From positions 62,001 to 126,000 of the forward strand of contig NZ_FNCY01000006.1 in NCBI RefSeq assembly GCF_900099695.1: a stretch of DNA of 64,000 nucleotides. The letters are read 5' to 3'. The notes under the pieces were generated by a model, which saw nothing but the letters and a program-made list of their open reading frames with translations, was not told the origin of the DNA and did no database searches. The position numbers and the translations under genes are program-made. This stretch comes from Propionivibrio dicarboxylicus (lineage in GTDB: Bacteria; Pseudomonadota; Gammaproteobacteria; Burkholderiales; Rhodocyclaceae). Of the stretch, positions 46,503 to 49,775 are shown piece by piece. Every line of letters starts with the position of its first letter. The stretch's first letter is position 1.

Positions 46503-47060
46503 ATGAAAACCGCTCAAGAACTCCGCGCCGGCAATGTCTTCATGGTCGGCAACGACGCGATGGTCGTGCTCAAGGCTGAATTCAGCAAGTCCGGCCGCAA
46601 CGCCTCGGTCGTCAAGATGAAGATGAAGAACCTGCTCACCGGCGCGCCTTCGGAAACTGTTTATCGTGCCGACGACAAGTTCGACACGGTTCAACTCGAC
46701 CGCAAGGAAGTGACGTACTCCTACTTCGCCGATCCGATGTATGTCTTCATGGATGCCGATTACAACCAGTACGAAATTGAAGCCGACTACATGGAAGATG
46801 CCCTCAAGTATCTCGAGGATGCAATGCCCTGTGAAGTCGTGTTCTACAACGGCAAGGCCATTTCGGTGGAACTGCCGACGATGCTCGTTCGTGAAGTGAC
46901 CTACACCGAACCCGCTGTCAAGGGTGATACTTCCGGCAAGGTGATGAAGCCGGCTCGTATTACGACCGGGTTTGAACTGCCGGTTCCGGCGTTTGTTGAA
47001 ATCGGTGACAAGATCGAAATCGACACGCGTACCGACGAATATCGCGCACGCGTCAAGTAA
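46503..47060 (+). CDS. efp: Elongation factor P (Arg32 type)
   Basis: 185 residues, three OB-like domains. The tip loop [10 protein letters not shown] places Arg at residue 32, the rhamnosylation site used by EarP, rather than the Lys used by EpmA systems. EF-P rescues ribosomes stalled at consecutive prolines. It ends at a strong terminator. Confidence 0.97.
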
Positions 47061-47075
47061 GCAAGACATTCGCTT

Positions 47076-47109
47076 AAAAAGACGGCAGCCGAGGCTGCCG
47101 TCTTTTTTT
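47076..47109. terminator. Terminator between convergent efp and tnaA
   Basis: GACGGCAGC (47081-47089) pairs with GCTGCCGTC (47094-47102), loop CGAG. It is flanked by AAAAA on the left and seven T on the right, so it can work for efp and, read leftward, for tnaA. Confidence 0.93.
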
Positions 47110-47112
47110 GCA

Positions 47113-48519
47113 CTAACTGATGGCGACCGGCTTCAGGTGCGCGGTGAAATGCCTCAGAATCTTCGGTTCATACACGAAATCATAGCCGGGCAGCGTGTGC
47201 GCAGCCGATTTGATCTCGTCGAAGACTTCTGCGACGTAATCCATGTGGCCATTAGTGTAAGTACGACGCGGTATGGTCAGGCGCAGGAGCTCCATCGGGG
47301 ACGGTTCCTGTACGCCGGTTTCCGGATTCCGGCCAAGCAGCAGCGAACCGATTTCGACACCGCGTACGCCACCCGCCTCGTACAACGCGACACCAAGCGC
47401 ATGCGCGGGAAAACGATCCGACGGAATGTGCGGAAGCATGCGGCGAGCATCGACAAAAACAGCGTGCCCACCCGTTGGCGTCTGAATCGGTATTCCGGAA
47501 GCCTGCAGTCGCTCGCCCAAGTAGGCGACCTGACCGATGCGGTAATCGAGATAATTCTGATCAAGAGACTCGCGCAGACCGATGGCCAGTGCCTCCATGT
47601 CGCGTCCCGCCAGGCCGCCATAGGTGACGAAGCCTTCCATCGGAACGCATCGCGCCTGAACCGCACGAAATAGCTCCTCGTCTTCCCGGAAACAGCACAA
47701 CCCGCCGATATTGACGAGTCCATCCTTCTTTGCCGACATGGTGAAGATGTCGCCGTACGAGAACATTTCCTTGACGATATCGGCAACACTGACATTCCGA
47801 TAGTCCGGGTCCCGCTCGCGAATGAACCAGGCATTTTCGGCGTAGCGGGCGACATCGAGAATAAGCGGAATCCCATTTTCCGTGGCCATTTGGCGAATGG
47901 CACGCAAATTGGCCATTGAAACCGGTTGCCCGCCAGCGCTGTTGCACGTCAGCGTGGCGATGATGCCGGCAATGGAAGATGCACCACTACCTTCGATAGT
48001 GGCTCTGACCCCTTCCAGATCGAAATTACCCTTCCAGTCATCGTAAGCGCCGGTATCGAAAGCCTTCGGCGTCAGCACGTTAATGGCACGCGCGCCGGCC
48101 ATTTCAACGTGTGCTTTGGTGGTGTCGAAGTGGAAATTCGAAATGAAGACCGGTTTCGCCGTCGGCGCGCGAGATAGAACACGAGCGACAAGTTCCGGAA
48201 AGAGAATTTGTTCGGCGCCGCGTCCCTGGTGCGTTGGAATGGTGAAGGGGTAACCGAACACGTCGCGGACAGTGTCGCGAAGATGAAAAAAATTGCGGCT
48301 TCCTGCGTAGGATTCGTCGCCGAGCATCAACCCTGCCCACTGGCGGTCGCTCATGGCGCCGGTCCCGCTGTCCGTCAGCAGGTCGATATAGACGTCATCA
48401 CCCGGCAAGAGAAAGAGGTTGTAGCCCGCCTCTTGCAGGGCTTGTCGACGGTATTCGATGGAAGTCAGGCGGATAGGCTCCACCATTTTGATACGGAAAG
48501 GTTCTGGAAGTCGTTTCAT
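47113..48519 (-). CDS. tnaA: Tryptophanase
   Basis: 468 residues, PLP-dependent beta-eliminating lyase cleaving tryptophan to indole, pyruvate and ammonia. The PLP lysine is in [10 protein letters not shown]. It is tryptophanase rather than tyrosine phenol-lyase because the discriminating regions read [11 protein letters not shown] (Asp, not Thr) and [12 protein letters not shown] (Val-Glu-Ile, not Met-Glu-Arg), and it ends [10 protein letters not shown] with the His typical of tryptophanase. ATG 48519 has a GAGG site. Upstream is a candidate TnaC leader; no tnaB permease is adjacent. Confidence 0.94.
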
Positions 48520-48622
48520 GGGAAATTCCTCGCAAATCCGCTTTGACGAGCGGATGTAACAAAGTGAGCTCGGCGCCGGATGACGCGAACCCTTGTGTCT
48601 GATCAAGTGAGGCAGAACCAGA

Positions 48623-48745
48623 TCAGCAGCGAGGAAAATCGTAGGTCAGGACGATATCGAGTGTTGCCCAGTGTTGAGCCAAAGCCGCCTCCGAGCCGCG
48701 TATCGGGCGCAAAGGGGTCAGGATCTCAAAACCAAACTGGGACAT
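48623..48745 (-). CDS. tnaC: Candidate TnaC-type leader peptide of tnaA
   Basis: A 40-codon open frame (ATG 48745, stop 48623-48625) between nagZ and tnaA. Its end reads [16 protein letters not shown]: Trp26, Asp30 and Pro38, that is W-x3-D-x7-P. E. coli TnaC has Trp12, Asp16 and Pro24, the identical spacing, with stalling at Pro24 when tryptophan is present. Here two residues follow Pro. A TTG at 48682 with GGAGG 5 nt upstream could give a 19-residue version. About 103 nt separate the stop from tnaA. This is a motif-based call. Confidence 0.6.
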
Positions 48746-48746
48746 G

Positions 48747-49775
48747 TCAGGAAAACCGGGAAATCAGGCGTTGACAGGCGTTAATGCCATCTCGATAGTG
48801 CGTATCGTCGCTTAGTCCGATGGGCGACGTCAAGGGTAGAAGTCGTGCGATACGATTCGAACGTATCCGGTCAATCGTCGGATGCCACCGCTCAAGGACC
48901 TGATCAACCGCATCGGACGCATTGCACAAGAGCAACATGTCGCACCCCGCCGACCATGCGGCCTCCGTTCGAGCAACGACATCGCCGGCAACACTGGCAC
49001 CTTCCATTGATAAATCGTCGCTAAACACGACTCCGTCAAAGTTTATGTTATTTCGTAAAAACGCATTCCATCTTGATGAAAAACCAGATGTTTTTTCATC
49101 AAGACACGGGTAAATAACGTGCGCCGGCATGACCGCATCGAGCGCCAGATGCCGATACGGTTTGATATCCTCCTGAAGCGCATCCAGATCTCGCTCATCG
49201 ACCGGCATCGCAACATGCGAATCCGCCGTGGCCCAACCGTGTCCCGGAAAATGTTTGCCGCAAGCACTCATCCCGGCCCGGTGTAGTCCTTCGATGAGAC
49301 CACCGGCGAGTTCAATGACGGCGTCAGGATTGCCGTGAAACGCGCGATCGCCGATGACGCTGCTACGGCCCCAATCCAGGTCGAGCACCGGGGTAAAGGA
49401 GAGATCAACATTGCACATTCTCAATTCAGCAGCCAACACGAAACCGATATCGCGCGCAGCTTGGACAGCCCGTTGCGGAGCCTCCTCCCAAAGCCGGCCA
49501 AGCGAACGCATCGGCGGCAGGCGGGTGAACCCCTCGCGGCAGCGTTGTACCCTCCCCCCCTCATGATCAATCGCGATCAACAGGCGCGGCGAGCGCAGTT
49601 TGTGTATTTCTTCGGCAAGCCGGGCCAGTTGCTCGGTCGATTTGAAGTTACGCGAAAAAAGAATGAGCCCACCAACCAGAGGGTGTTGGAGACGCACACG
49701 GTCTGCATCGGTCAGTTCGATGCCACCGATGTCGATCATCAACGGTCCATGCGGTAACTCGAGTACTGCGGTCAT
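48747..49775 (-). CDS. nagZ: Beta-N-acetylhexosaminidase NagZ
   Basis: 342 residues, glycoside hydrolase family 3. The catalytic loop KHFPGHGWATADSH (His and Asp) and FSDDLSMEGA (nucleophile Asp) are present. NagZ acts in the cytoplasm, removing GlcNAc from anhydromuropeptides in cell-wall recycling. ATG 49775 overlaps the acpS stop. It is the last gene of the rpoE-to-nagZ run; tnaC starts one base after its stop. Confidence 0.95.
   Translation of the reverse strand: MTAVLELPHGPLMIDIGGIELTDADRVRLQHPLVGGLILFSRNFKSTEQLARLAEEIHKLRSPRLLIAIDHEGGRVQRCREGFTRLPPMRSLGRLWEEAPQRAVQAARDIGFVLAAELRMCNVDLSFTPVLDLDWGRSSVIGDRAFHGNPDAVIELAGGLIEGLHRAGMSACGKHFPGHGWATADSHVAMPVDERDLDALQEDIKPYRHLALDAVMPAHVIYPCLDEKTSGFSSRWNAFLRNNINFDGVVFSDDLSMEGASVAGDVVARTEAAWSAGCDMLLLCNASDAVDQVLERWHPTIDRIRSNRIARLLPLTSPIGLSDDTHYRDGINACQRLISRFS

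Follow-up and report, generated by a model that had tools for sequence, protein, structure and literature searches.

A TnaC-family leader peptide before tnaA in Propionivibrio dicarboxylicus and its predicted pairing with the tnaA ribosome-binding site

TnaC serves as a model of how a nascent chain senses a metabolite, and indole is a signal widespread among bacteria. Residues W12, D16, I19, and P24 of E. coli TnaC are named as critical in the consulted part of PMC10941005, and according to the excerpt available from PMC8429421, replacement of the arginine before this proline by phenylalanine (R23F) makes the peptide hypersensitive to L-Trp. The output of TnaC is described as the blocking of Rho in the accessible sections of PMC3902921 and PMC8429421. 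According to PMC7186457, tnaA translation in E. coli is repressed by ribosomal protein L4, which acts through the spacer by a different mechanism, and in the available text of PMC8537960 tnaC appears solely as an exclusion term. The literature search found no paper on a betaproteobacterial TnaC and no description of Shine-Dalgarno sequestration for tnaC-tnaA; the older literature on P. vulgaris and on TnaC residues lay outside this search, and an earlier remark there is possible.

The locus described here lies in a 64,000-nucleotide stretch of P. dicarboxylicus DNA, which is called the window below. A sequence-only reading of the window had proposed a TnaC leader of tnaA, in a frame with Trp26, Asp30, and Pro38 at the E. 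coli TnaC spacing, a stop two codons past the proline, and 103 nt before tnaA. All of these elements are present, and the frame is very probably a member of the TnaC family. In addition, the spacer likely couples tnaC to the tnaA ribosome-binding site, a point absent from that reading. The features of the locus are listed in Table 1.

Table 1. Features of the tnaC-tnaA locus in the window (positions are those of the whole stretch).
Feature	Position	Strand	Evidence
nagZ (beta-N-acetylhexosaminidase), upstream gene	48747..49757	minus	437.4 bits versus cut-off 207
tnaC, 40-aa leader peptide, UGA stop	48745-48623	minus	frame kept in same-genus L002 at 40 aa without indels
possible internal start at a TTG preceded by GGAGG	48680..48682	minus	GGAGG not conserved in L002
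TnaC functional core and stop (W26, D30, L33, F37, P38)	48623..48670	minus	pattern common to 129 leaders
predicted anti-Shine-Dalgarno: UU of Phe37 codon, Pro38 CCU, Arg39 CGC	48629..48636	minus	pairs with 48526-48533 in minimum-energy fold
leader hairpin 1, 5' arm across tnaC stop	48596..48628	minus	7 of 11 pairs kept in L002
leader hairpin 2	48566..48592	minus	10 of 11 pairs preserved in L002 (3 through change on one side)
leader hairpin 3, directly before tnaA Shine-Dalgarno	48536..48555	minus	7 of 7 pairs in L002: 2 double, 1 one-sided change
tnaA Shine-Dalgarno region GCGAGGAA, predicted to be sequestered by tnaC end	48526..48533	minus	minimum-energy fold
tnaA, tryptophanase, 468 aa	47113..48519	minus	profile scores; best solved chain 1ax4

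The leader frame and its setting

The minus-strand frame between nagZ and tnaA carries W26, D30, L33, and P38 in the arrangement W-x3-D-x2-L-x4-P, with two residues after the proline and a spacer of 103 nt from the tnaC stop to the tnaA ATG (48519). The critical residues of TnaC are thereby matched at the E. coli spacing, with Leu for Ile at W+7, the position that corresponds to I19 of E. coli TnaC. When the 227-nt region was shuffled 5000 times with its dinucleotide content kept, the pattern W-x3-D-x7-P followed by a stop within three codons arose 4 times, and once when I, L, V, or M was required at W+7 in addition. In the six frames of the whole window, the motif with a near stop occurs once, in tnaC.

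Related tnaA loci show the same leader. W-x3-D-x7-P, then a stop within six codons, was found in the 450 nt upstream of 88 out of 96 tnaA loci with TnaA identity above 60% and the N-terminus present, a set in which some species enter twice from two collections. One of the eight loci without the motif (L020) is an edge fragment. This set used a wider start search; under a narrower one, seven loci had no start, and L022 and L023 received TTG starts. The motif-bearing loci include Chromobacteriaceae and Burkholderiaceae. TnaC is thus present in many betaproteobacteria, so a betaproteobacterial TnaC is not exceptional. I or L at W+7 and F directly before P, the residue that R23F introduces into E. 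coli TnaC, are found in all 129 leaders of non-E. coli-like TnaA; these leaders were picked by the W/D/P motif, and both positions lay outside the search pattern. Leu at W+7, as in the window (L33), occurs in 91 of the 129.

Within the family draw, the one same-genus relative with the gene is genome G105 (locus L002), whose TnaA is 91% identical to that of the window. The last 21 codons of tnaC differ between the two by five synonymous changes and one non-synonymous change, which falls after the proline, and the N-terminal part is looser. The synonymous bias that had been proposed as a check is therefore seen in this part of the frame, and the outcome that had been named as refuting, loss of the Trp, Asp, or Pro codon or a frameshift, is absent from L002. 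These data, together with the 88 loci, argue for a leader of the TnaC type. That the frame is a chance ORF without function is highly improbable: it is short and is recognised by no Pfam or NCBIfam model, whereas the rarity of the motif in shuffles, its presence at the related tnaA loci, and the substitutions in L002 all speak against chance.

The window peptide is unmatched by the Pfam and NCBIfam leader models, among them TIGR02616, with which the Balneatrix peptide reaches 12.8 bits versus a cut-off of 23.55. TIGR02616 is a 22-position model, and a miss reflects a limit of the model rather than a defining biological feature. Since it reaches none of the three peptides tried, such leaders are easily missed by annotation. 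An Rfam element was also sought; none was convincing, the best match having an E value of 0.91, below the gathering score.

The host 23S rRNA has U746, A752, A2058, A2059, U2585, and U2609, compared as bases. The equivalent of uL22 Lys90 is conserved, as read from the RAKGR context in which K90 of E. coli uL22 lies. The ribosomal residues of the L-Trp site (Psi746, A752:U2609, and uL22 K90) are thus present in the host, Psi746 as base U only.

The sequence-only reading had left the start between the ATG at 48745 and the TTG at 48682 with its GGAGG. The ATG is now favoured. It lies 1 nt past the nagZ stop in the window (TGA-C-ATG), and the tnaC ATG of L002 is likewise 1 nt past the nagZ stop (TAG-A-ATG), an arrangement in both same-genus genomes that suggests translational coupling of tnaC to nagZ. 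L002 has GCTGAAACGGCATTG at the place of the GGAGG, which is absent there; the TTG may serve as a second start. Neither a sigma-70-type promoter on the tnaC strand nor an intrinsic terminator was found within 48400-49200. Because the nagZ stop adjoins tnaC, tnaC is probably transcribed by read-through from nagZ.

The downstream gene scores 717.8 bits with TIGR02617 and 543.7 bits with TIGR02618, which rules out tyrosine phenol-lyase. The protein is above the cut-off of NF009709 (711.6 versus 285) and below the equivalog cut-off of TIGR02617 (717.8 of 825.8). None of the 297 genomes of the family draw passes this TIGR02617 cut-off, and TIGR02617 may be fitted mainly to E. coli-like sequences. 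The protein of locus L233 is identical over 464 residues to chain 1ax4, which we take to be the P. vulgaris tryptophanase structure. Complete TnaA of the window's kind (above 700 bits) occurs only in G000 and G105 within the family draw, and G227 holds a 48-residue edge fragment. In the TnaA tree, the window and L002 form a pair whose neighbours are three assemblies labelled Aquabacterium or Burkholderiaceae; the surrounding betaproteobacterial group contains Aeromonas as well.

The gene efp lies downstream of tnaA in convergent orientation, and in both the window and G105 tnaC-tnaA sits between nagZ and efp. No tnaA was seen in the flanks of the other 13 genus loci fetched around nagZ. In four of them (L127, L132, L134, and L137), compared with window positions 47060-48747, nagZ and convergent efp are direct neighbours with 33 to 107 nt between the aligned ends; in the other nine, efp was not seen within the nagZ flank covered. 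Because nagZ and efp adjoin in four genus genomes that lack tnaA there, tnaC-tnaA appears to have been inserted as a unit of two genes that brings its own switch.

Many tnaA loci have no recognisable TnaC, and they come from both TnaA types, those similar to the window's and the E. coli-like. In total, 42 loci were without the motif (8, 33, and 1 from the three locus sets). Thirty-nine of these were rescanned with relaxed patterns over 638 to 1000 nt, with L020, L095, and L154 left out, and three matches were obtained (L094, L174, and L191). The frames of L094 (WFVIDESRAAFRLHF, 111 nt before tnaA) and L174 (WYNCDFRLVRACLHC, 75 nt before tnaA) keep W-x3-D and have Leu at the Pro position; they are possibly decayed or altered TnaC. 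TnaC was unrecognised within 638-1000 nt upstream at L166-L173, L175, L178-L180, L184, L186, L188-L190, L193, and others.

Predicted pairing between the end of tnaC and the start of tnaA

In the minimum-energy fold of the window leader, three hairpins are enclosed by a helix in which UUCCUCGC (48636-48629, in the Phe-Pro-Arg codons) pairs with GCGAGGAA (48533-48526). The end of tnaC is thus predicted to hide the tnaA Shine-Dalgarno. The six nucleotides CCUCGC of the Pro and Arg codons pair within -20 to -1 of tnaA with a probability of 1.0 in both the window and L002, and these two codons would occupy the P and A sites of a stalled ribosome. The leader is strongly folded (z -3.51), and none of 200 shuffles folds as well. 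When the window fold is imposed on L002, 30 of 35 pairs can still form: 23 are unchanged, 5 have changed on one side, and 2, in hairpin 3, have changed on both sides. The other 5 are broken. Hairpin 1 of L002 retains all six consecutive pairs across the stop codon and loses four others. The closing helix is identical in the two genomes, so this comparison neither supports nor opposes it. Taken alone, the duplex between the tnaC end and the tnaA start is not significant against shuffles in the window (p 0.09; 0.17 in a first test), and the corresponding values for L002 are 0.11 and, in the first test, 0.04.

The effect of a stalled ribosome on this fold was computed by forbidding pairing in its 32-nt footprint and calculating the cost of opening positions -14 to +3 of tnaA. 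The calculation is thermodynamic, with an assumed footprint, and ignores kinetics and transcription. The opening cost in the window fell from 12.3 to 5.4 kcal/mol under the stall mask, a gain of 6.9 kcal/mol, whereas 14 equal masks elsewhere in the spacer gained at most 5.3 kcal/mol. The stall mask was the best of all equal spacer masks in 21 of 32 leaders hand-picked from 88, and not the best in the remaining 11; it was the best in five of six further leaders. Control masks were stepped by 4 nt in the 32-leader set and by 6 nt in the further set. Among the nearest TnaA relatives outside the genus, L021 gained 0.0, and L023 gained 1.7 kcal/mol versus at most 1.3 for other masks, with a good score of -7.3 in the swap test described below. 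For leaders of E. coli-like TnaA, the stall mask came first in 7 of 24, and the gain in K-12 was 0.1 kcal/mol.

A pairing of this kind could also serve re-initiation: with the tnaC stop brought beside the tnaA start, ribosomes that terminate on tnaC could begin again on tnaA. The pairs do include the tnaC stop codon and the bases right before the tnaA ATG in several leaders (for example L054, L185, and L072). In the window, however, they cover the Shine-Dalgarno itself, which should hinder initiation, and opening the tnaA start of the free leader is costly, as calculated above. Re-initiation is accordingly judged quite improbable, and masking of the tnaA Shine-Dalgarno is the preferred reading of the pairing.

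The swap test compares the duplex energy of the tnaC end (from the Pro codon) and its own tnaA start with that of all swapped partners, after removal of row and column means. Thirty hand-picked representatives of the 88 leaders gave z -5.1 and p 5e-5, and four segment lengths tried in this first test gave p values from 5e-5 to 1e-4. Control segments of the same 30 leaders gave p 0.06 to 0.27 in three of four cases and p 0.027 for one segment upstream of the Trp codon. With a sliding 20-nt segment in these leaders, starts at 0, +6, and +12 from the Pro codon gave z -5.2, -5.7, and -4.3, and starts at -6 and -12, which overlap the stall region, gave -3.1 and -2.6. The segment at -84 gave -2.4, and the remaining segments ranged from -1.9 to +1.5.

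For the enlarged test, the 129 leaders were thinned to 30 at less than 70% identity. The cognate pair was better by -3.07 kcal/mol (z -6.9, p 2e-5), with 27 of 30 values negative, and removal of the five strongest leaders left p 6e-5. The 16 non-beta leaders gave z -6.1, and the 14 beta leaders were weak (z -2.2, p 0.019), the beta label being assigned by the analyst and L066 being titled only Proteobacteria. A dinucleotide-shuffle null, which uses no other species, gave a Fisher p of 1.7e-7 at the stall site, where 8 of 30 leaders were individually below 0.05, and p 0.66 to 0.99 at three other segments. Out of four held-out lineages, L165 and L185 did better than almost every swap on both sides, L187 did better than all on one side, and L163 was unremarkable; these four leaders also enter both enlarged sets. 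The sequences that pair differ widely, as in TTGATCCTGTTT with AAATAGGATCAA (L072), CTGATCGCG with CGCGATCAG (L185), and ATTCTCCG with CGGAGAAT (L046). L185 is an alphaproteobacterial TnaC (WYNQDIVLAYDFPRA) on plasmid pTM3 of Tistrella mobilis, and the bases around its stop form a close pairing with the start of tnaA.

Leaders of E. coli-like TnaA gave a much weaker signal in the swap test (z -2.2, p 0.018; 24 of 33 after thinning) and in the shuffle test (Fisher p 0.04). Together with the mask results, these weak signals indicate that the coupling belongs more to the wider TnaC group than to the E. coli type. Counting against the coupling, most Photorhabdus leaders showed no pairing beyond shuffles (z about +1), and two stood at -1.8 and -1.9. 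Thinning elsewhere in the enlarged analysis retained 33 of 101 leaders, and three segment lengths were tried for the sets of 33 and 24. The second locus set held 82 loci, of which 36 had no leader (1 without an N-terminus, 2 without a start codon, and 33 without the motif), and 28 of the 30 loci in the third set were used (1 without a start and 1 without the motif). Neither a class-wide genome draw nor a search around G958 added usable leaders.

Proposed output of the leader

We put the probability at about 0.7 that, in the window, a ribosome stalled on TnaC by tryptophan would unmask the tnaA Shine-Dalgarno (translation attenuation); Rho may act too. At low tryptophan, ribosomes would complete tnaC and depart. 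The Phe-Pro-Arg codons would then pair with the Shine-Dalgarno region and close the three-hairpin junction, so that the tnaA Shine-Dalgarno would be hidden. At high tryptophan, free L-Trp would bind in the exit tunnel next to W26 and D30, and P38 in the P site would block transfer to the Arg39 tRNA, giving an elongation arrest. The stalled ribosome would cover the anti-Shine-Dalgarno codons, and tnaA would therefore be translated. This reading is based on four computed results: the peptide and its frame are conserved, the tnaC end coevolves with the tnaA start across lineages, most of the leader fold persists in L002, and the tunnel residues are conserved. From these we infer tryptophan-dependent stalling, the arrest site, and the effect on tnaA translation. 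A downstream Shine-Dalgarno hidden by a pairing that a stall can break is found as a prediction in the window and as coevolution across leaders, the window duplex not being significant by itself.

Control of the E. coli type only, in which a ribosome arrested on TnaC keeps Rho off a rut site in the spacer and the pairing is incidental, is unlikely. Such control is well established for E. coli, P. vulgaris is reported to use it too (PMC3902921 and PMC8429421), and the failure to find an intrinsic terminator agrees with it. C slightly exceeds G in the spacer (0.30 versus 0.24), which contains 18 YC dimers, a composition that gives no decisive signal. Coevolution of the stall site with the tnaA start over 30 leaders is not expected from a rut site, however, and the strong fold of the leader and the much weaker pairing signal of the E. 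coli-like leaders, K-12 among them, also count against Rho as the sole output.

The two layers may act together, the hidden Shine-Dalgarno stopping tnaA translation and Rho then ending the untranslated transcript. Untranslated mRNA is a usual target of Rho. We hold this combination, which is compatible with unmasking of the Shine-Dalgarno and overlaps it, to be only just short of an even chance. The leader of the P. vulgaris-type L233 (TnaC MFSSFNVLIILRGFVRLKKWFNIDSELAFFFPKK) has the complementarity, and P. vulgaris is reported as Rho-dependent in the available part of PMC3902921; the short distance between the window's two genes speaks against a second layer there.

With translation attenuation as the preferred reading for the window, it can be tentatively proposed, at somewhat less than even odds, that unmasking of the Shine-Dalgarno is the widespread TnaC output in Pseudomonadota (beta- and gammaproteobacteria and an alphaproteobacterial plasmid). 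The pure Rho switch of E. coli would then have arisen secondarily, as a special case within the E. coli-like TnaA branch, and in the window the Pro-Arg arrest codons would themselves be the anti-Shine-Dalgarno. The TnaA tree, which is rooted only at its midpoint, places the E. coli-like sequences on a long branch among the others. If many TnaC leaders unmask the tnaA start, one sensor would be coupled to two outputs, and the textbook arrangement may be the exception. As indole is so widespread a signal, knowing how tryptophanase is switched on outside E. coli is of general use. The unmasking model is directly testable by silent changes in two codons.

Comparison with described systems

The window leader shares with E. 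coli TnaC the W-x3-D-x2-I/L-x4-P spacing, the place before tnaA, the tunnel residues of the host, and the presumed ligand, free L-Trp. It differs in having two residues after the proline, for which elongation arrest is expected, whereas E. coli TnaC shows termination arrest. F precedes P in the window and R in E. coli, and the spacer is 103 nt compared with 220 nt. Shine-Dalgarno sequestration is predicted for the window and was not seen for K-12. In contrast to the tnaCAB operon, no tnaB was recognised, as the host genome (98.6% complete) has no match to the PF03222 (TnaB-type) permease.

The window leader and P. vulgaris TnaC both have two residues after the proline, F before P, a short spacer (115 nt in L233), and complementarity between the tnaC end and the tnaA start, and elongation arrest, as proposed for the window, is reported for P. 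vulgaris. The leader sequence is different, and the P. vulgaris system is the one reported as Rho-dependent (PMC3902921, in the part consulted).

In ErmCL/ermC and SecM/secA, arrest in a leader frame likewise opens a hidden downstream Shine-Dalgarno, according to the available parts of PMC10219788 and PMC10501990. Those systems use other peptides and other signals (macrolide and secretion), and no sequence kinship is claimed; in the window, by comparison, the predicted anti-Shine-Dalgarno is formed by the stall codons themselves. TnaC itself is known, and the window leader is a further member of this family whose output is most likely different, namely translation attenuation.
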